This document shows, one piece after another, positions 18,322-29,410 of a DNA stretch of 64,000 bases. Made by a program: the position numbers and the translations under genes. Each line of letters starts with the position of its first letter. Position 1 is the first letter of the stretch. Where the stretch lies: assembly GCA_001789205.1 (NCBI GenBank), contig MFYT01000004.1:1-64000 (forward strand). The letters run 5' to 3'. The notes beneath the pieces are model-generated. The model saw only the letters and a list, made by a program, of their open reading frames with translations. It made no database searches and was not told the origin of the DNA. The stretch is from Candidatus Raymondbacteria bacterium RIFOXYA2_FULL_49_16 (GTDB lineage: Bacteria > Fibrobacterota > OXYB2-FULL-49-7 > XYB2-FULL-49-35).

Positions 18322-19488
18322 ATGTTCCAGAGAATCATAACTTATTCAAAATCAAACAGTTTCTTTTTGTTCGGTCCGAGAGGAACGGGTAAAACCACCC
18401 TTGTCCATAAACGATTCAGTCCGGACAATACACTCTTTATTGATTTGCTCAACCCCGAGGAAGAAAACACTTTTATTCTTCACCCAAAGGAACTTGAACA
18501 GCGAATCAACCAATTCGGTCCCCATCTTCAGAACGTTATAATTGATGAAGTCCAAAAAGCCCCAAAACTGCTTGATTGCGTTCATGGGCTCATCGAAAAT
18601 CACAAGCCCCCCCTGCGCTTTGTCCTTACCGGATCCAGCAGCCGTAAACTAAAAAGAGGCGGTGCCAATCTTCTAGCGGGTCGCGCATTCGTGTACACAC
18701 TGCATCCCCTGACCAGTGTGGAAATAGGTGAGGATTTCGACCTTGAAACTGCCCTGGCTTGGGGTACACTCCCGAAAATCTTCACGCTGCCAGGTGTTTC
18801 CGATAAAACCGATTTTCTTCGCGCCTATGCGCTCACGTATATTAAGGAGGAAATTTCAGCCGAGCAAGTAGTCCGAAAACTCGATCCTTTCCGCAGGTTC
18901 CTTGAAATCACCGCTCAGATGAATGGCAAGCCGGTCAATTTCTCCTCCATCGCCCGGGATACAGGGGTTGATATTAAAACCATCCAATCATATTTTGAAA
19001 TACTTGAAGACACCTATACCGGTTTCCTGCTGAACGCCTATCATTCATCAAGCCGGAAAAGCCTCAGGTTTGCTCCCAAAGCGTACCTTTTTGATACGGG
19101 TGTAAAAAGAGCGCTGGAGCGCACTTTAAGCGGCGCATTGACTCCCGGAACTTACGCATACGGTGAGGCGTTCGAACATTTCATAATCCTTGAAATCAGA
19201 CGGCTCGCTTCGCTCCGATATCCCGATTGGGAGTTCTCCTTCCTGAGAACCAAAGATGGCGTTGAAATAGACCTGATTATTGATCGTCCAGGTATGCCCA
19301 TCGCGCTCATTGAGATAAAATCCGGCACAACAGTCACCGAACAGAATACGGCAACCTTGAACAGAGTACAATCGGAATTCCCAAAAGCGGAATCATACTG
19401 TTTAAGCCAGGATGTCTCGGCCAAAAAAATCGGTGCGGTCCATTGTCTTCACTGGCAGGAGGGATTAAAAAACCTTGGCCTCGCTTAG
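18322..19488 (+). CDS. AAA-family ATPase with DUF4143 domain
   Basis: About 388 residues from the ATG at 18322 (a TTG at 18301 would add seven). The N-terminal ATPase has Walker A FGPRGTGKTT, Walker B NVIIDEVQK and the sensor FVLTGSSSRKLKRG. The C-terminal half is DUF4143, with an endonuclease-like fold suggested by DGVEIDLIIDRPG and ALIEIKSG, matching the PD-(D/E)XK pattern of this family. Such genes are common, solitary and often horizontally mobile; their role is unknown. It lies between housekeeping regions without an operon partner. Confidence 0.88.
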   Translation: MFQRIITYSKSNSFFLFGPRGTGKTTLVHKRFSPDNTLFIDLLNPEEENTFILHPKELEQRINQFGPHLQNVIIDEVQKAPKLLDCVHGLIENHKPPLRFVLTGSSSRKLKRGGANLLAGRAFVYTLHPLTSVEIGEDFDLETALAWGTLPKIFTLPGVSDKTDFLRAYALTYIKEEISAEQVVRKLDPFRRFLEITAQMNGKPVNFSSIARDTGVDIKTIQSYFEILEDTYTGFLLNAYHSSSRKSLRFAPKAYLFDTGVKRALERTLSGALTPGTYAYGEAFEHFIILEIRRLASLRYPDWEFSFLRTKDGVEIDLIIDRPGMPIALIEIKSGTTVTEQNTATLNRVQSEFPKAESYCLSQDVSAKKIGAVHCLHWQEGLKNLGLA

Positions 19489-19537
19489 CGGTTATCTATT
19501 GTCACCTTACCTGCTTTTAACATATATTTCATTTGGT

Positions 19538-20371
19538 ATGAAAATAACATGCTGGGGCTGCAGGGGTTCCCTCCCCACGCCGGGTTCCACTACGGTGAAA
19601 TACGGCGGCAATACCACGTGTTTTCAAATCAATTCAAAAGACGGTCACCTGATCATCATTGACGCGGGATCGGGTATGCGCATGCTGGGCAATTATTTGC
19701 GCAAAAACGATCCCCGCCGCATCATCCACCTGCTCATCACCCATGCGCACTGGGACCACCTCATGGGCTTTCCCTTCTTCATGCCCGCCTACCTGAAGAA
19801 CTACTCCATCAAGGTAAAGGGGTATATCGACGCACACCACAAACTCAAGGACATCATCGCGCACCAGTTTGAAAGTCCCTATTTTCCCGTTGATTTCAGG
19901 GTCCTCAAATCGCGCCTTGAATTCACCGAACTGAAGAAAAAAAAGTTTAAGATAGGCAATGTCTCAATCGAAACCATCAGGCTCAACCATCCCAATGGCG
20001 GTTTCGGGTTCAAATTCAGGGAAAACGGCAAGGCCTTTGTCTTTCTCACCGACAACGAACTCACCTACAACCATGGTTCAAAAATGAACCGGTGCGATTT
20101 TATCGAGTTCTGCCAAGACGCGGACCTGCTTATCCACGACGCCCAATACCTCGAAAGCGAATACAACCATTTCAACCGCGGCTGGGGCCACTCCACCTTT
20201 GACGATGCCTTTGAATTGGGCCGCGACGCGGGCGTCCGCCGCCTGGGATTCTGCCATCACGACCAGGAGCGTAACGACCGCGACCTCGACGCCATCGAGA
20301 AAAAATACGCGCGCATCTCAGGCCGCATGAAGTGCTTTGTAGTCAAGGAACACGATACCTATACGGTCTGA
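19538..20371 (+). CDS. Metallo-beta-lactamase-fold hydrolase
   Basis: About 277 residues from the ATG at 19538, which opens with the family start MKITCWGCRGSLPTPG. The zinc motif is THAHWDHLMGFP, with further ligands in FLTDNE, LLIHDAQY and the late GFCHHDQ. It resembles stand-alone cytoplasmic MBL proteins of the RNase Z/phosphodiesterase-like group (PhnP or cyclic-nucleotide phosphodiesterase relatives). No substrate can be named. A longer frame from 19475 overlaps the preceding gene and adds an unlikely leader. Confidence 0.85.
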   Translation: MKITCWGCRGSLPTPGSTTVKYGGNTTCFQINSKDGHLIIIDAGSGMRMLGNYLRKNDPRRIIHLLITHAHWDHLMGFPFFMPAYLKNYSIKVKGYIDAHHKLKDIIAHQFESPYFPVDFRVLKSRLEFTELKKKKFKIGNVSIETIRLNHPNGGFGFKFRENGKAFVFLTDNELTYNHGSKMNRCDFIEFCQDADLLIHDAQYLESEYNHFNRGWGHSTFDDAFELGRDAGVRRLGFCHHDQERNDRDLDAIEKKYARISGRMKCFVVKEHDTYTV

Positions 20372-20375
20372 CCCC

Positions 20376-21230
20376 TCACTTATCAAAATCGAAAAGCAAC
20401 CCTCCCCCTTTCTTGCCGTAGATTGTTATGGATCCGTTGCGGTCTGTGCGCAGCACAACAGCGTTGGTCTGCGCCAGGCGCGCGATCGCCTCGTCCGAAG
20501 GATGGCCGAAAGGATTGCCGGATCCAACTGAAACCACGGCCGCGTCGGGCGCCACCGCGGCAAGAAAGGCCGTTGACGAAGAAGTCTTTGATCCGTGGTG
20601 CGGCGCCTTCAGTATGGTTGCGGATAGCTCGCCGGGACAATCGAGCAAGCGTTTCTCCGACTCAAAATTGATGTCAGCGGCCATAAGCGCGGTACAGGTA
20701 CCATTGCTGATGGAAAGCACCAGGGAGAGGGCGTTGCATGTGTCGCTCTCCGTTATGACCGCCGCCGTATCGGGCCACAGGCACGTTACACGCTGTGACA
20801 CGCCGCCGGGCGCCTGCCGTCCCCTGAACATGACAATGGTGTCAATACCCAGGGTATCGGCCACAAGCCGTACAAATGCCGCGTACGCTTTGTCTCCCGG
20901 CCAGGTGCCTCGCGCCGAAAGCCATACGCGCTCCACGGTGAATTGACGGCAGACCAATCCCGCGTTGCCGTAATGGTCCTCGTGCGCATGGGTAACCGCC
21001 AGGTCGTTAATGACGTGAATATTCCGGTTTGTCAGAATGGTGTCAATACCGCTTCCATACGAACCCGCATCGATGAGCAAGGTTGTGCTGTCGGAAAAAC
21101 GCACCAGCGCAGCGTCACCCTGGCCCACATCGCAAAAGGTGATGGAAAAACGCGGTTCTTGGTCCGGAACACTGACCGGAGAACACGATACAAAAACAAG
21201 ACAAAACCCAAGGGCGCACACCCAGTTCAT
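20376..21230 (-). CDS. ComEC/Rec2-like metallo-beta-lactamase hydrolase, exported lipoprotein
   Basis: A 284-residue protein. A signal peptide ends in the lipobox-like FVSCS, so it is probably lipid-anchored outside the cytoplasm. The mature part matches the C-terminal MBL domain of ComEC: ITFCDVGQGDAALVRF, LLIDAG, LAVTHAHEDHYGN, LMAADINFESEKRLL and the terminal ILKAPHHGSKTSS. In competence, this domain of ComEC is a candidate nuclease that degrades one DNA strand. Here it stands alone, without the ComEC channel. Its ATG overlaps the stop of the outer-membrane barrel gene as ATGA, so the two are translationally coupled and probably act together. Confidence 0.87.
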   Translation of the reverse strand: MNWVCALGFCLVFVSCSPVSVPDQEPRFSITFCDVGQGDAALVRFSDSTTLLIDAGSYGSGIDTILTNRNIHVINDLAVTHAHEDHYGNAGLVCRQFTVERVWLSARGTWPGDKAYAAFVRLVADTLGIDTIVMFRGRQAPGGVSQRVTCLWPDTAAVITESDTCNALSLVLSISNGTCTALMAADINFESEKRLLDCPGELSATILKAPHHGSKTSSSTAFLAAVAPDAAVVSVGSGNPFGHPSDEAIARLAQTNAVVLRTDRNGSITIYGKKGGGLLFDFDK

Positions 21231-22912
21231 GGCCTGCTCCCTGCGGGCAGGGCCATAATAAGGGAAAGGCCCATGGCTGCTGGTGAAAAAAGCGGCTCAT
21301 CCGCGCCAAACGACAGCACGCCAAAGGCCTTGAGGTGTCCTGCTTTTCCGACTGACATGCTTTCTTCGAGAGAAAACGCGCCTTCGAATGTATGGCCCTT
21401 TCCGGAACGGGAGCTGATGAACAGGCATTCGGGCGACAACGCAATGCCCCGGCCCGCGGGAAATGTGCAGCACACGCGCGCGGATACACGTTGCGCGTCT
21501 CCCGCATCAGCGTACCGCGCGCCAGCCTCAAGGCTGCCGCCATTGATAAATCGCTTTGCGTACAGCCCCGATGCGTAGGGACTGTCCGAGGAGTTGGTGT
21601 CTGTACGCACTGATGTAATTCCCTGAATGCCGGTAAGGGTATATGAGGCTCCACTGCCAGTCCATTCCTCGCGCCATTCAAGACAATACCTGTTTTCCCT
21701 GGACAGGCTGGAACGGGCGGCAGTGGCGGCTGGCCCAAAGGAAAGGCCACGTGCCTCCCATGTGGCCCACATTTTTGCATACTGTTCACTGGTACGCGCA
21801 CCCGTAATCAGAGCTGAATCAGTTTCATTATATGCATACACCGACCGCCGGGAAAAGGCGGACTGGCCCCTGCCTGCGGGATTGCAATAGCCGGCGCCAT
21901 AGGCGGCATAGCCCAGGCCAGCCCCAAGCCTGCCCGACCGCTGGGAGGCGTCGATACTGATCGCCGCACCGCTGTCCGCGTACGAGACCTCGGCGTCCAC
22001 CCTACCCTGACCGGTGCGCGCGCCGCCATACGCGCCAACAGCCGCCATGTCAATATTGCCGTTTCCCTGGCCTGGCAGCCGCATGCCCGCCACCGCGATG
22101 CCCGCATAGGCGGCGCCCTGTCTGATATCGCATCCGCCGCCGGCAAGACCAGCCAGACGGCCGGCAGCAGTCCGTTCACGCGCAGCCGAAACAAAGGCAA
22201 AAGGCGCGCAGCGCTGTAATGACAAAGACAGGGAAAGACCGTTGAACTCCGTTGTACGGGGAAAAAGGGCGCTTTCCGGAAAATCGCGCGCATAGGCCTG
22301 GTTCGAAAAGAGCTGGGGCGCGCCGCCAAGGGTGATGCCGCGACCCTTGCGCAGGCTGAAATTGCCCAAAGTTGCGCGCAGCCCGGTACAGGCCGGTGAA
22401 ACGGCAATGGACCGCGATTGAAAATACCCGTTGCCAAAGGCGTCAGAACGCTGCTCCGCGGAAAATGAGACTCCAGCCGCCTGCGCAAAAACGCCAAGCC
22501 CGTGCTCCTTCTCGAACATGGTCAGAGTGTCATCAAGGTTGCGGGAAAAATCATACGCCACCCGTACGGCGGCCGGCGTGCCTTCGTCCGGCGATAGGAC
22601 AAAGGGCGCTATCTTTACGCGCAGGCCGCGGGGGATTGACTCCCAGTCAACGGCCGCGGAACCGCACGCGTTTTCGAGCAGTGAAAGTTCCTCCTGCGAC
22701 ACGCCCGGCACCAGCGCCAGTCCATCGAGTGAAACGCACAGGCCGCGCCTGTTTTCGCACATATCATACAGTATGGCATAGGCGTTTCCGTCAAGGTATC
22801 CTTCGCGGTAAAGCCAGTACAGGCCACCCTTCGAGTCGATGCGCTGCGCATCTACCTGGAGCGCACCGCACCCAAGTAGCGCGCATATGATGAATAATCG
22901 GCAATACTGCAC
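21227..22912 (-). CDS. Outer-membrane beta-barrel protein with N-terminal helix-hairpin-helix-like segment
   Basis: A 561-residue exported protein starting at GTG. After the signal peptide (about 1-22) comes a short helical region with an HhH-like element, LDGLALVPGVSQEELSLL (about 63-80), followed by a region resembling pre-barrel linkers. From about 115 on it is an alternating, glycine- and aromatic-rich barrel with many short strands. The block LGNFSLRKGRGITLGGAPQ resembles the conserved GDY...GQGL segment of ComEA-like HhH outer-membrane proteins found in Bacteroidetes/Chlorobi-type genomes. I infer a DNA-binding-related or assembly role; function is not established. It is the first gene of the pair with the ComEC-like hydrolase. 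Confidence 0.65.
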   Translation of the reverse strand: MQYCRLFIICALLGCGALQVDAQRIDSKGGLYWLYREGYLDGNAYAILYDMCENRRGLCVSLDGLALVPGVSQEELSLLENACGSAAVDWESIPRGLRVKIAPFVLSPDEGTPAAVRVAYDFSRNLDDTLTMFEKEHGLGVFAQAAGVSFSAEQRSDAFGNGYFQSRSIAVSPACTGLRATLGNFSLRKGRGITLGGAPQLFSNQAYARDFPESALFPRTTEFNGLSLSLSLQRCAPFAFVSAARERTAAGRLAGLAGGGCDIRQGAAYAGIAVAGMRLPGQGNGNIDMAAVGAYGGARTGQGRVDAEVSYADSGAAISIDASQRSGRLGAGLGYAAYGAGYCNPAGRGQSAFSRRSVYAYNETDSALITGARTSEQYAKMWATWEARGLSFGPAATAARSSLSRENRYCLEWREEWTGSGASYTLTGIQGITSVRTDTNSSDSPYASGLYAKRFINGGSLEAGARYADAGDAQRVSARVCCTFPAGRGIALSPECLFISSRSGKGHTFEGAFSLEESMSVGKAGHLKAFGVLSFGADEPLFSPAAMGLSLIMALPAGSRP

Positions 22913-24096: not shown

Positions 24097-25221
24097 TTAT
24101 AAAAACAACTCCAGAAACCGTTCCTCTTCATTTTCCCAGCGCATATCGCGCGCCATGGCAAGTGCGTGCGTGCGATATTCGGCCAAGTGCGCGGACGATA
24201 CAAGCAGATCATTGAGCGCCCGCGCAATGGCGTCTGGATGGGGCGCTTCGATATAGACGCCAAACCGGTAGCGGCCATTCACCTTCTCAATCTCGGGAAG
24301 CCGGCTGACAGCCATGGGAAGCCCGGCCATGGCATAGTCAAAAATCTTATTGGGAAGCGCATTGGCGAAACTGGCGCCGTCAGCGGCTCCAGTGAACACG
24401 CCAACATCGGCCGAGCACAGCAGACCGTGCAATTCCGTAAAGGGAACCGGCGGCAGCCAGGATACCCGCTGCGCGCGATTATTATCTCTCAGCGCCTTGC
24501 GTACTCGCGGCGCTTCGGGACCATCACCGATAATGACCAGGTGGGCGCGGGAGACCGCGTCCATGGCGCACACCAGTTCATGCACACCGCCCGACCTGAG
24601 CAGCGATCCCTGGAAAACAATGATTGGCATGTCCCCGGACACGCCGCATTGTTCGCGAAGGGCGTTGTTCGGCGCATACGGTTTATACAGAGGAAGATTG
24701 CGCACCACCACAGGAGCAAGACAGTTGTATTTCCGCGCAAGATCGCTGCGATCTGATTCGCATACCGTGATTGAACGCACGACATGGCGCACGGAAAAGC
24801 CCTCAAGCAGCCGCCATACGGCCTTCTTGAAAGGCGAACGATGCACATCAGGGAGTTCCGTGTACAGCTCGCGCGAATCGTACACTACTGACCCGCCCCG
24901 CAGCAGGGACGCGCACACACACGGGAAAAGCGCGGGCAAATCGCAGGCAAGATAAAAGGCCGGACGCGCGTGCAAAGCCATGAAAAAAAGACGGATCATA
25001 TACAGGGCGAAAAAGAGAACGCCAGGAAGACGGGAGCGTGAAAGCCGTATCAGGCTGATTGAAAGACCCGCCCAATGCCCAAGCGCCGGTACCTTTTCCG
25101 GGTCAGCGTACGATACAACCCGAACGTCACAACCCTGCCGAACCAGGGACCTCGCCTGCCGGTACAAACGGTACTCGGTGGTCAGGTCGGAAATACATGC
25201 GGCAAAAACAGTGGTCTTCAT
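24097..25221 (-). CDS. Glycosyltransferase family 4
   Basis: A 374-residue cytoplasmic GT-B enzyme. The N-terminal half has YDSRELYTELPDVHRSPFKK; the C-terminal donor-binding half has IVFQGSLLRSGGVHELVCAMD, LVIIGDGPE and the loosely conserved EX7E-like region around GAADGASFANALPNKIFDYAMAGLP, shortened in places. It retains PNKIFDY(A/M)A, typical of family 4 members acting on surface glycans. It overlaps the flippase stop as ATGA and follows it in the same operon. Confidence 0.85.
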   Translation of the reverse strand: MKTTVFAACISDLTTEYRLYRQARSLVRQGCDVRVVSYADPEKVPALGHWAGLSISLIRLSRSRLPGVLFFALYMIRLFFMALHARPAFYLACDLPALFPCVCASLLRGGSVVYDSRELYTELPDVHRSPFKKAVWRLLEGFSVRHVVRSITVCESDRSDLARKYNCLAPVVVRNLPLYKPYAPNNALREQCGVSGDMPIIVFQGSLLRSGGVHELVCAMDAVSRAHLVIIGDGPEAPRVRKALRDNNRAQRVSWLPPVPFTELHGLLCSADVGVFTGAADGASFANALPNKIFDYAMAGLPMAVSRLPEIEKVNGRYRFGVYIEAPHPDAIARALNDLLVSSAHLAEYRTHALAMARDMRWENEEERFLELFL

Positions 25222-26654
25222 CTGCGCGTCAGAAAGGCCTTTGCCTTTGCGATCTCTTCCTTGTCAAAAAACCGGACCGCATACAGAAGGGGGACAAAGG
25301 CCGCAACGCCGATGATACGGACCAGGGTGCTTCCAAGAACGAGCGCTGGCACATAAACCAGGGCGGTAAGCAAGGCCAGGGTGGCAATGCGGCGCCACTC
25401 ATAAGGTATAAAATAAAGTTTCATGGAAATTGGATACAGTATGGCGGCCATGGCCATGTAAGAAATCAGGGTGACAATGGCCGCGCCCATGATACCAAAG
25501 CGCGGAATAGCGAAAAGATTGCACCCCACGTTGATGATCGCGCCCGCGCAGGTAATAAGCGGAATGTACCGGGTCTTCTCGCGCGCATATATGCCCACGA
25601 TGAAATTGGAATAGATGCCGCAAAAAAGATAGGCCAGCAGCAGCACCGGGATAACCGGCAGGCCGGCCGCGTATTTCGCGCCCACTAGGGTAAAGTTCCT
25701 GAAACCAAGGCCCGCGATCTCCCGGTAAAAAAGCCCTACTGTCAAAAACACAAGGGTAGTTACAAACACATAATAGGTGAAGACCCGCGAAAACATGCGC
25801 GCCCCTGATTCGTCCTTCATGTGCGTAAGAAAAAACGGGGTCCAGGCGGTCTGAAAGGCGTAGACAACCAGGAACATGATGACCCCGAGCTTTGCCGCGG
25901 CGCTGTAGAGCCCCACCTGTTCAGCGCCCAGCATGCGATTGACAAGAATGCGATCGATAAGGTCGATGATAATGACAAAAACAACGTTGGGGATATAAGG
26001 CAGCCCAAAGCCAATCATGCGCTTCATGAGGCTGCCGGGAGCGCTGCGCCGCAGATTTTTGGCATAGAGCGGTATGAACACGCCTACCACCAGGCACGAG
26101 GCCAGGGTGTTTGCCTGGAGCACGGACACGACCGTGGTATTGTGCCGCAGATAAATAAGGTAAAAACAGGTGGAAAAATGGATGGTGACGTGCACAATTT
26201 TCATGATAATGAACGACAGTGGCCGCTTGTCGGACTGGAGCAACGTATAGGGCGCGACTGTAAGCGCGTCAAAAACCAGGATGGCAAGCATATACCCGTA
26301 CGCGCCGGGCGCGTCGAGTCCCATGACGCCCAGCAGAAATCCCGCGGAGAGCTTAAGTACAAAGAACCAGAAGATGCTGGCCGCGACTATCCAAGCGACT
26401 CCCGCGGTAAAGGCCGCATCGCGGCTGGTTTCGTCTTTGACACGGTAGCGCATGATGGCCTGGCGCATGCCGCACATGAAAAAGACTTCGGCAATGCCTA
26501 TGAAGGTCTGGATGACCCCCAGCTTCCCGAACTCCGAGGGCGCCATGCTGTTGGTGAGCAGGGGCAGCAGCATGAAATTGATGCCGCGAGAAATAAAACC
26601 GCCAAGGCCATAGATGACCGAGTCGGATAAAAGGGACCTGATTTTCTGGAACAT
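25218..26654 (-). CDS. Polysaccharide/lipid-linked oligosaccharide flippase (MOP superfamily, Wzx-like)
   Basis: A 478-residue protein with about 12-14 hydrophobic segments. The start resembles the Wzx/RfbX family: FQKIRSLLSDSVIYGLGGFI, then LLPLLTNSMAPSEFG. Later segments include VGLYSAAAKLGVIMFLVVYAF and CNLFAIPRFGIMGAAIVT, both family-typical. It should move lipid-linked glycans across the inner membrane. Its ATG touches the stop of the propeller-protein gene, and the following glycosyltransferase overlaps its end. Confidence 0.85.
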   Translation of the reverse strand: MFQKIRSLLSDSVIYGLGGFISRGINFMLLPLLTNSMAPSEFGKLGVIQTFIGIAEVFFMCGMRQAIMRYRVKDETSRDAAFTAGVAWIVAASIFWFFVLKLSAGFLLGVMGLDAPGAYGYMLAILVFDALTVAPYTLLQSDKRPLSFIIMKIVHVTIHFSTCFYLIYLRHNTTVVSVLQANTLASCLVVGVFIPLYAKNLRRSAPGSLMKRMIGFGLPYIPNVVFVIIIDLIDRILVNRMLGAEQVGLYSAAAKLGVIMFLVVYAFQTAWTPFFLTHMKDESGARMFSRVFTYYVFVTTLVFLTVGLFYREIAGLGFRNFTLVGAKYAAGLPVIPVLLLAYLFCGIYSNFIVGIYAREKTRYIPLITCAGAIINVGCNLFAIPRFGIMGAAIVTLISYMAMAAILYPISMKLYFIPYEWRRIATLALLTALVYVPALVLGSTLVRIIGVAAFVPLLYAVRFFDKEEIAKAKAFLTRR

Positions 26655-29288
26655 TTATCGGATAATCGCCAGTTTCCCGGTCCGGACCTGCTTATCAGGC
26701 GCCGTGAACCGGTAAATATATATTCCTGTGCGTACGTATGTCCCGCCCGGGTTTTTCGTGTCCCACTGACAGCTGGACTGGTGGCTGGGCAGCGCCTTCT
26801 GGAACACCAGCTCGCCCGCCAGCGTGAAGACCACGATGGACGCGCCGTTCACGCGGGTATTGAAAAAAACAGGGCGGACGCCCCGGCAGAGCACCGGGTA
26901 GGCGTATCCAGATTCGACCGCGTCGGTAAGCCGCACGCCTGATTCGAATTCCTGGAGCCCGTTTTCGAACCCCAGAAACACCTTCCCTGTGCTGCGGTGC
27001 ACAGCGACTGAAAACACCCGGTCGTACATAAGGCCCTTTGACTTGTCGTAGGAATCAATAAGAATGCCGCTCCGGTCCACATCGCCCACGTCCACGGCGC
27101 TGGTCGGATACCGTGCCGTGGCATAGTGGAGCATCTTTACCCCGTATTCGTCCGTGGCTATCCAAATATTGTTCAGTGAATCAAAATCAAAGTCATTGAT
27201 GCCCACGTCAGGCAGGAAATACCGCCAGAGCCCGTCCACGTTGCTATATATCTTTGTACCGCTCAACGGAGGATAATAGTCCTTTCCTTCGGCGTAATAA
27301 TATAGTCCCGATGTGGTGCTTATCCATATATCACCGTAAAGGTCGGTCTTGACCTTTTTCGCCGTCTTGTTGGCAAGGTACGACTGCAGGCCCCTTTTAG
27401 ATTCGGGCAGCCCCTTGGTGGACGCTGACTGTATGCACAGATTCTTGTATGTCGAAAGGTTATCAAAAATCAGGGAATCGCGTGTGCTCAGTTCGCGGCG
27501 CAGGCCGAACGCGTCAATATCGCCCCTTCCCTGGGCGATAGCCCAGATATTTCCCGCGCCGTCCACGGCCAGGCTGTTGTAGTGGCCGTCGGCCTGAAGC
27601 CGGTTGCGCGTGTCCACGCGGCAAAGCTGTTTAAACCCGCCCGTGGCGCCCGAGTAATCGGTCATATTGACCATGTATCCCTGGTAGGACCTCTGTCCGT
27701 CAAGGGACTGGTCCCGGTACACCCTGATGCCTCCGGGATTGGTCCATTTGCCGCTGATGTATTCGTTCTCAGACTGCGAGAAGTAAAAATTGCCGGCCGC
27801 GTCAAAGCACAGTGCGGTGGGAGTAAAGGCCGTGACCCAGGAATAGATTTCCGGATTCGGCGCGTTCATATAGATGCTCGGGTGCATATAGTTTACCGGC
27901 CCAAACTGCTGCCTGAACTCCCAGATTGCGGGCCCATAGGTCCGGTTGCCCAGCGTCGTTTCTTCCGTGAGAAAGGGGTTGTCAATAGAGATAAAACCAT
28001 GGTGCCAGGTGTCTGTGCAGAACGAGGCGAAAATACGGTTATTTTTATCAACCACAAACGCGTTCATGCCCGCAATGGTAGTGGGGTCGTATCCAGCGAA
28101 AATATGGGTCCATTTGTGTCCATCAAATTTCAGGATCCCCATGCTCTTCTCTTTGTTCGCCCATGAGTCGCCGGGAATGTCCGTATTGTTCGCGTACACA
28201 TTGCCGTACTGATCAACCGCAATGGACCTAATGAGGCTGAATGTTTGTTCATCGCCGTTCCAGAACCAGCCCTGGCTCAGCGGCGCAAAGGGCATGAAGA
28301 GGCCCCGTCCCTTTGTGCCAACGTAAAACCGCCCCCGGTTGTCCACGGCAAGGGAGGTGTAGGCTGACACGCCCACATGGTCCTTTGAGAAACCGTAAAT
28401 TTTTCCAGCGGTGATGGTGTCGTACCTGAATCCATCATTGATGATAGTGATCCACGCTGAATCATTGGTGTAGGAAACAGCGTAAACAGCGCCAGAATCG
28501 TCGGTGAAAAGATCGGCGCACACGCGGCCAGCAATGGCATTTCCCTGCAGGTAGAAATGGTCATATCCCACAGTGTCCCACTCACCCGGCGCTGTTTCAA
28601 CACGATACGCGAAATCTCCCTGGTTGGCATTAGTGGTCCAGAGTGATGGGTCGTTCAGATTGAAAGTGCTGTTTGACCGCACCATGGGTTGTGTCCAGTT
28701 GAGCTTGAGTTTTGCCCAGAAGAGCCGTGTGAGCGCATATATGGTGTCCTGGCGGACAAAAACATCGCGGACCGGGGTTTTGTCCTGCACCAGCACCTTG
28801 ATCGAATATCCGTTGGTGTCGGTCCCGAACTGCCTGAACGAGGGCTCGACAATGGCGCCTCCGGCTTCGGAAAAAAGCCCCAGTCCCTCGTTTGTGGCAA
28901 TAAGCAGGGTACCTTTGTATACATGCAGTTTGTTGAAGACAATGTCTTTTTGGCTTTTAAAGTCCGTATAAACGCGGAATTGACCCTTGTCGAAAACCGT
29001 GATGTTGCCGCCATCCATGCCCATATAGAGTTTGCCGTTCTGTTTGTCCACGGCAAGCTTGGCAATACCAGTCCCGCCAATGCCGTCAGTCAGCGAATAT
29101 GTTGTCTCGCTCCCGTCAGCCACGTCAATGCACAACAGGCCTCCGGCCGTTGCCGCGTACAGGGTCCCGCGCGAATAGACCGCATCGCGCACTTCCGCCA
29201 TGGATGTGTGCACATGCCATTGTCCGTCAATGGCAAAAAGCGGTACAACACATACTGCCGCAAATAGAATCAGAATAAGGTTTTTCAT
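26655..29288 (-). CDS. Large secreted beta-propeller protein with C-terminal sorting-like domain
   Basis: About 877 residues from the ATG at 29288, which begins the signal peptide MKNLILILFAAVCVVPLFA. The body consists of repeated propeller-like blades of the two-component-regulator type, such as GTLYAATAGGLLCID, LYMGMDGGNITVFDKG and GDIWISTTSGLYYYAEG. The last 80 residues (WDTKNPGGTYVRTGIYIYRF, ending GKLAIIR) match the FlgD-like sorting module, although the usual PNPF is not present. It is likely secreted or surface-attached; function is unknown. It is placed first in the operon with the flippase and glycosyltransferase. Confidence 0.78.
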   Translation of the reverse strand: MKNLILILFAAVCVVPLFAIDGQWHVHTSMAEVRDAVYSRGTLYAATAGGLLCIDVADGSETTYSLTDGIGGTGIAKLAVDKQNGKLYMGMDGGNITVFDKGQFRVYTDFKSQKDIVFNKLHVYKGTLLIATNEGLGLFSEAGGAIVEPSFRQFGTDTNGYSIKVLVQDKTPVRDVFVRQDTIYALTRLFWAKLKLNWTQPMVRSNSTFNLNDPSLWTTNANQGDFAYRVETAPGEWDTVGYDHFYLQGNAIAGRVCADLFTDDSGAVYAVSYTNDSAWITIINDGFRYDTITAGKIYGFSKDHVGVSAYTSLAVDNRGRFYVGTKGRGLFMPFAPLSQGWFWNGDEQTFSLIRSIAVDQYGNVYANNTDIPGDSWANKEKSMGILKFDGHKWTHIFAGYDPTTIAGMNAFVVDKNNRIFASFCTDTWHHGFISIDNPFLTEETTLGNRTYGPAIWEFRQQFGPVNYMHPSIYMNAPNPEIYSWVTAFTPTALCFDAAGNFYFSQSENEYISGKWTNPGGIRVYRDQSLDGQRSYQGYMVNMTDYSGATGGFKQLCRVDTRNRLQADGHYNSLAVDGAGNIWAIAQGRGDIDAFGLRRELSTRDSLIFDNLSTYKNLCIQSASTKGLPESKRGLQSYLANKTAKKVKTDLYGDIWISTTSGLYYYAEGKDYYPPLSGTKIYSNVDGLWRYFLPDVGINDFDFDSLNNIWIATDEYGVKMLHYATARYPTSAVDVGDVDRSGILIDSYDKSKGLMYDRVFSVAVHRSTGKVFLGFENGLQEFESGVRLTDAVESGYAYPVLCRGVRPVFFNTRVNGASIVVFTLAGELVFQKALPSHQSSCQWDTKNPGGTYVRTGIYIYRFTAPDKQVRTGKLAIIR

Positions 29289-29410
29289 TACCCTAATAAA
29301 ATACAAACTTGCAGAGCCCGGAGGCGAAGGGTCGGTATGCACAGAGAGAGACTACATACCAAAGATAATGAGTATTGTCCCTTCACTCTCCAGCCCGCTC
29401 CTCTCTCCCA

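Follow-up and report, generated by a model that had tools for sequence, protein, structure and literature searches.

The nearest characterized relative of the metallo-beta-lactamase (MBL) considered here is the C-terminal domain of ComEC, which in isolation is an Mn2+-dependent nuclease that requires the aspartates of motif II (PMC8579336). Transformation in Riemerella requires a helix-hairpin-helix (HhH) protein (PMC8459023), and true HhH outer-membrane barrels of 650-710 aa occur in the related phylum Bacteroidota, where 86 of 99 genomes contain some match. A further outer-membrane system is that of PlpD, which has a patatin-POTRA-Omp85 architecture with a periplasmic patatin domain and whose loss raises phospholipid levels (PMC11116518). 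The locus described below, from the phylum Fibrobacterota, couples a secreted, putative barrel to a ComEC-type MBL, and most of its relatives place that pair beside a gene of the PlpD type.

The window, i.e. the whole stretch of DNA that was analysed, comprises the first 64 kb of contig C4 in a genome of 5.43 Mb, and both open reading frames of the pair lie on its minus strand. The barrel gene (22912->21227; 21227..22912) has a GTG start and encodes 561 aa, whereas the MBL gene (21230->20376; 20376..21230) encodes 284 aa with an MBL fold like that of the ComEC C-terminal domain and is a predicted lipoprotein. As the initial annotation had stated, the two genes are joined by a 4-nt ATGA stop/start overlap (21227..21230, minus strand), and a Shine-Dalgarno-like GGGAG (21237-21241, minus strand) sits six bases upstream of the MBL ATG. 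A second, different MBL-fold gene (19475-20371, plus strand), which is RNase Z / cyclic-nucleotide phosphodiesterase-like (Lactamase_B_2, E=7e-17), is convergent with the ComEC-type MBL gene and ends four bases away from it. Upstream of the pair, the minus strand carries genes for a glycosyltransferase (24097-25221), a polysaccharide flippase (25218-26654) and a beta-propeller protein resembling PorZ, which weakly matches the CHU_C type IX secretion signal (26655-29342), a row (24097-29342) that looks like a type IX secretion/surface-polysaccharide cluster.

Judged from its sequence, the MBL is unambiguously a ComEC-type domain. It matches Lactamase_B in Pfam (E=8e-15) and positions 421-663, the C-terminal region, of the ComEC_Rec2 model TIGR00361 (E=1.6e-30), and its best matches in the PDB are solved ComEC structures (E=1.7e-22). 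The TIGR00361 score of 105.9 bits, which reflects domain coverage only, is far under the equivalog cut-off of 190 because the protein is a single domain, as expected for the stand-alone ComEC-type MBL that had been proposed. Like ComEC/Rec2 (TIGR00361; chains 30bt, 9ic4 and 9vc6), it belongs to the same MBL subfamily and has the motif III Asn and, in the alignment, all the metal ligands; in contrast to ComEC/Rec2, its 284 aa include neither the channel nor the OB domain, and it is secreted with a cysteine in its signal peptide. On the minus strand, the metal site comprises motif II, HAHEDH (residues 81-86; 20973..20990), which fits HxHxDH; motif III Asn166 (20733..20735), which in ComEC-type proteins takes the place of the canonical MBL His, with its role taken from PMC8579336; motif IV Asp186 (20673..20675), the predicted bridging ligand; and motif V His211-His212 (20595..20600). 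These ligands are retained in nearly all MBLs that are coupled to a barrel, so the HxHxDH site, which the initial annotation had singled out for checking, is not lost in homologues. Motif II reads H-x-[HD]-x-D-H in nearly all of them, with HTESDH in locus L357 as the single departure, and most of those in family f4 have the HxDxDH form that is also found in nuclease-active ComEC. At the second of these metal-binding positions, the window MBL has His and most ComECs have Asp, a difference that is not absolute: His occurs in 36 of 45 stand-alone proteins vs 20 of 68 ComECs, and Asp occurs in 42 of the 68 ComECs. Since Asp is frequent among barrel-coupled MBLs, the use of His vs Asp as a hallmark of stand-alone MBLs was dropped. 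An MBL tree was also set aside: in it the MBLs of the window and of genome G167 group together, but their branches are long and the grouping was flagged as possible false attraction. Searches of phage and defence libraries returned generic MBL matches only.

The lipoprotein assignment, also made in the initial annotation, can be kept with a reservation. A putative lipid-modified cysteine, Cys16 (21183..21185, minus strand), ends a hydrophobic signal stretch in the context FVS/C, and a Cys stands at the end of the signal peptide in all 25 of the barrel-coupled MBLs examined; however, the window lipobox is atypical, with F at -3 and an n-region that contains neither K nor R. The same genome also encodes a full-length ComEC (contig C40) and a ComEA-type HhH protein (contig C8), and the pair is therefore not needed to supply either of these.

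The barrel protein begins with a signal peptide, MQYCRLFIICALLGCGALQVDAQ (approximately residues 1-23; 22844..22912, minus strand), as read from the translation. It is followed by an N-terminal domain (approximately residues 24-115; 22568..22843, minus strand) that is probably helical, judging by its sequence pattern, and probably periplasmic, and whose counterpart in alignment A6 of the barrel family is the block LxEGxLDSxxWExLxPYYxxPLSVPxGELxxLxxFP...YxPWDxxxIxRFFxDYPxLxxFxPIL. The motif GNFSLRKGRGI (residues 183-193; 22334..22366, minus strand) is the equivalent of GNFxxxxxxGLFxGYFP in that family and of GDYxxxFGQGL in the HhH barrels of Bacteroidota. The window protein has no match in Pfam or NCBIfam, and BLAST does not link it to the Fibrobacterota barrel family, which itself lacks a Pfam entry and was reached through six further loci and then by profile search. 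With hhalign, the window barrel matched the six-member family profile at E=0.0068 and a 27-member profile at E=5e-4 over 315 columns, with none of 60 shuffles as good, these E-values being those of single comparisons. The similarity includes the GNF...GLFxGYF and WNG blocks, and the nine invariant columns of alignment A6, which itself includes the window barrel, are all present. Its score of 37.3 compares with a maximum of 26.2 for the other barrel and secreted proteins used as controls, two DUF3570 proteins aside; only these two, which had been preselected by a profile search of 297 Bacteroidota genomes, scored higher, and their matches span just 60-67 columns. Although it has diverged strongly, with 18 % identity to the first sequence of the family, the window protein thus appears, by profile comparison, to belong to the Fibrobacterota family.

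As to the fold, most family members have a terminal F/Y and there are local matches to DUF3570 profiles. DUF3570 outer-membrane proteins provide the best profile matches outside the phylum, at 60-70 columns late in the barrel, but they have no full-length similarity to the family. Single-sequence AlphaFold models of both barrels were of low confidence (pLDDT 33.5 and 27.5). Of the earlier claim of an outer-membrane barrel, then, a secreted barrel is supported by homology, while the fold itself stays a prediction. A search of IMG/VR for the barrel found nothing.

The initial annotation had also placed a ComEA-like HhH element at the N-terminus of the barrel, and this is the part of it that is not supported. 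Pfam gives no HhH match in the barrel, and a scan of the genome with HHH_3, which did find the true ComEA, returned no match to the barrel even at E<=5. When the N-terminal domain of the family was compared with ComEA, 11 of 100 column shuffles did as well, and against the HhH of the Bacteroidota barrels there was a bare match, equalled by 2 of 100; the positive control, ComEA vs the HhH domains of those same barrels, gave E=1.5e-27. A 24-aa stretch that resembles an HhH hairpin, RGLCVSLDGLALVPGVSQEELSLL (residues 55-78; 22679..22750, minus strand), did match the HhH profile of the Bacteroidota barrels in hhalign (E=9.6e-4, 0 of 200 shuffles as good), but 11 of 200 shuffles equalled its match to the ComEA profile, and the hairpin is not kept in the relatives of the window barrel. 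The outcome comes close to the refuting case named in the initial annotation, namely that the N-terminus lacks the HhH fold, and the element was dropped as an argument for DNA binding because the family domain does not match ComEA; the two may still share a diverged relation at the level of the fold.

Barrels that do carry an N-terminal HHH_3 domain of their own (E=2e-16), a domain undetectable in the window barrel, are those of Bacteroidota and KSB1. Their GDYxxxFGQGL motif resembles the GNFSLRKGRGI of the window, although the motif count was made with a pattern picked after viewing the sequences and is descriptive only, and there is weak, collinear profile similarity. The idea that the window barrel is a plain member of this group was rejected (HMMER E=25; hhalign E=0.08, 4 of 100 shuffles as good), which leaves the short motif and the weak collinear segments. 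Compared as whole families, the Fibrobacterota barrels and the Bacteroidota HhH barrels align at E=0.029 with none of 40 column shuffles as good, a relation that is suggestive only. The surroundings also differ: most Bacteroidota loci have a PorV-like barrel gene and a DUF4835 gene adjoining, and no MBL occurs within the 15-kb neighbourhoods searched around the Bacteroidota and KSB1 barrels. In loci L250-L269 (e.g. L261:4332-8164), the small PorV-like barrel commonly precedes the HhH barrel and the DUF4835 gene is divergent, whereas in locus L189 of KSB1 and in L180, labelled Caldithrix, an HhH is found at the C-terminus of the small barrel itself. One Fibrobacteraceae genome gives a strong match to the profile of the Bacteroidota barrels (L220; G135:C78:130-678; E=1.3e-29), which lies at a contig end and is probably bin contamination.

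Across Fibrobacterota, stand-alone ComEC-type MBLs are present in most genomes, and the profile search found the barrel family in 34 genomes from six other families (f4-f9); these genomes are related and do not amount to 34 independent events, and a marginal match in a 35th was left out. Many of the genomes are metagenome bins with frequent missing genes and contig ends. Among the 30 barrel loci read, two (L331 and L338) are truncated, and in 26 of the 28 that could be assessed an MBL lies directly downstream of the barrel on the same strand. By longest open reading frame, the MBL starts inside the 3' end of the barrel gene in 23 of these 26, the overlap lengths obtained in this way being upper bounds; gaps of 3, 38 and 219 nt separate the genes in the other three. 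The relative from the same order as the window has the same coupled arrangement, with a 13-nt overlap between the MBL and a barrel-like gene upstream of it. That barrel is still more divergent and has no significant match to the barrel family, to which position and short motifs link it. In at least seven families, order, strand and close spacing have thus survived divergence at the family level. The data as a whole support an envelope module that is conserved and whose ComEC-type hydrolase is intact.

The pair that the initial annotation had suggested looking for elsewhere is, then, found in other genomes, although the search for unpaired genes gave a mixed outcome. The MBL occurs without the barrel in Fibrobacteraceae and in families f10-f13, and the barrel occurs without the MBL in genomes G034 and G038, neither of which has any MBL match. 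Since each gene occurs singly, neither protein strictly needs the other. An early impression from 20 loci that pairing was restricted to the order of the window was overturned by the loci of stand-alone MBLs in f4 and f6-f9. An apparent barrel-MBL fusion in G041, a 716-aa open frame, proved to be an overlapping frame in high-GC DNA; the real MBL gene of that genome follows a Gfo/Idh-like gene and encodes a stand-alone lipoprotein.

A patatin-like gene on the opposite strand adjoins the barrel, or is no more than two genes away from it, in 21 of the 25 f4-f9 loci, a count based on the active-site motif with L344 and L300 added by Pfam. Three of the exceptions (L353, L355 and L356) lack the gene and the fourth (L306) meets a contig end. 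Pfam resolves the full Patatin+POTRA+Omp85 architecture in L300, L301, L339, L344 and L347, and the same-order relative has a divergent, adjoining Patatin+POTRA gene in which Omp85 is weak and which is cut by the contig end. A motif scan of the whole 64-kb window detected no patatin, and an SGNH-like gene stands where relatives carry the patatin gene. The PlpD-type protein is an outer-membrane protein with a periplasmic lipase domain that neighbours the pair in most relatives; it is encoded by a separate gene, not beside the window pair, and no homology to the barrel or the MBL is claimed for it. The loci that were inspected showed no competence gene next to the pair. Because a divergent PlpD-type gene is next door in most relatives, the neighbourhood favours a part in lipid turnover over one in DNA uptake and argues against a system dedicated to the latter. 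Downstream of the MBL, several f4 and f7 loci (e.g. L342:2034-5517 and L306:1475-3550) encode a histidine kinase that also has a receiver domain (HATPase_c + Response_reg in Pfam); in some of them, a secreted protein that lacks a Pfam match comes before it.

The best explanation of the pair, its conservation, its intact metal site, its signal-peptide cysteine and the patatin neighbour that relatives have and the window does not, is an outer-membrane module that would pair the barrel with a lipoprotein phosphodiesterase acting on envelope lipids or lipid-linked glycans, a tentative reading to which we assign a probability of roughly 0.42. Through coupled translation, the barrel and the MBL would be made in roughly equal amounts; the MBL lipoprotein, anchored in the outer membrane, would dock on the barrel, which may either hold it against its substrate or carry substrate or product through the membrane; and the two-metal, ComEC-type site would cleave phosphodiester bonds of envelope lipids or lipid-linked glycans. 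Membrane location, complex, barrel fold, catalysis and substrate are in this proposal all things that we infer. The nuclease activity of the nearest characterized relative (PMC8579336) counts against it, as does the missing patatin gene beside the window pair and in L353, L355 and L356, and the occurrence of the MBL without barrel and patatin in Fibrobacteraceae and elsewhere implies that the enzyme has some role of its own. Membrane-lipid processing is nevertheless at least as likely as DNA uptake to be the job of the pair, with the neighbourhood favouring envelope lipids or lipid-linked glycans and the ancestry of the MBL favouring nucleic acid.

That ancestry is the main strength of the rival in which the barrel takes up or holds extracellular DNA and the MBL cuts it, for nutrients or for the resident ComEA/ComEC pathway. 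The Mn2+-dependent ComEC nuclease (PMC8579336), the full set of metal ligands with the HxDxDH of nuclease-active ComEC in most f4 members, the 24-aa HhH-like stretch, the distant signal to the Bacteroidota barrels (E=0.029, 0/40) and the essential HhH protein of Riemerella (PMC8459023) would all suit it, but the family N-terminal domain has no detectable HhH, none of the loci inspected showed a competence gene next to the pair, the strong link is to patatin-Omp85 instead and the MBL is alone in many genomes; we consider DNA processing unlikely. Slightly more doubtful again is surface display, in which the barrel would be a dedicated exporter or anchor of the lipoprotein and the enzyme would act outside the cell on environmental polymers or degrade signals: the strict barrel-then-lipoprotein order, mostly overlapping, across families and the cysteine in 25/25 MBLs speak for it, yet MBL lipoproteins without a barrel exist in f10-f13 and the barrel stands without an MBL in G034 and G038. 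That the two envelope genes share a transcript by chance or through common regulation, with no joint function, would accommodate their single occurrences and the divergence of the window barrel (18 %), but it is hard to reconcile with an arrangement kept in at least seven families and is quite improbable.

Overall, the initial annotation stands as to a coupled envelope pair, a ComEC-type hydrolase and lipoprotein character, whereas its DNA reading loses the HhH leg and must compete with the patatin-Omp85 link; its fallback, that the domain pair was recycled for another role, is the stronger of its two readings. A bolder form of the lipid reading, rather unlikely as it stands, is that Fibrobacterota possess an undescribed, three-part outer-membrane machine: alongside a patatin phospholipase of the PlpD type and the new barrel family with its helical periplasmic domain, it would comprise an MBL lipoprotein that derives from the ComEC nuclease line and was recruited to cut envelope phosphodiesters. 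Ordinarily, annotation would call the MBL a competence protein and leave the barrel hypothetical, so that the pair would be taken for a DNA-uptake system or overlooked, and a 'ComEC-like' match by itself is weak evidence for competence. The barrel-MBL pair beside patatin-Omp85 is instead a lead on the use of ComEC-type hydrolases outside ComEC, as well as on the handling of outer-membrane lipids in a phylum with few genetic tools.
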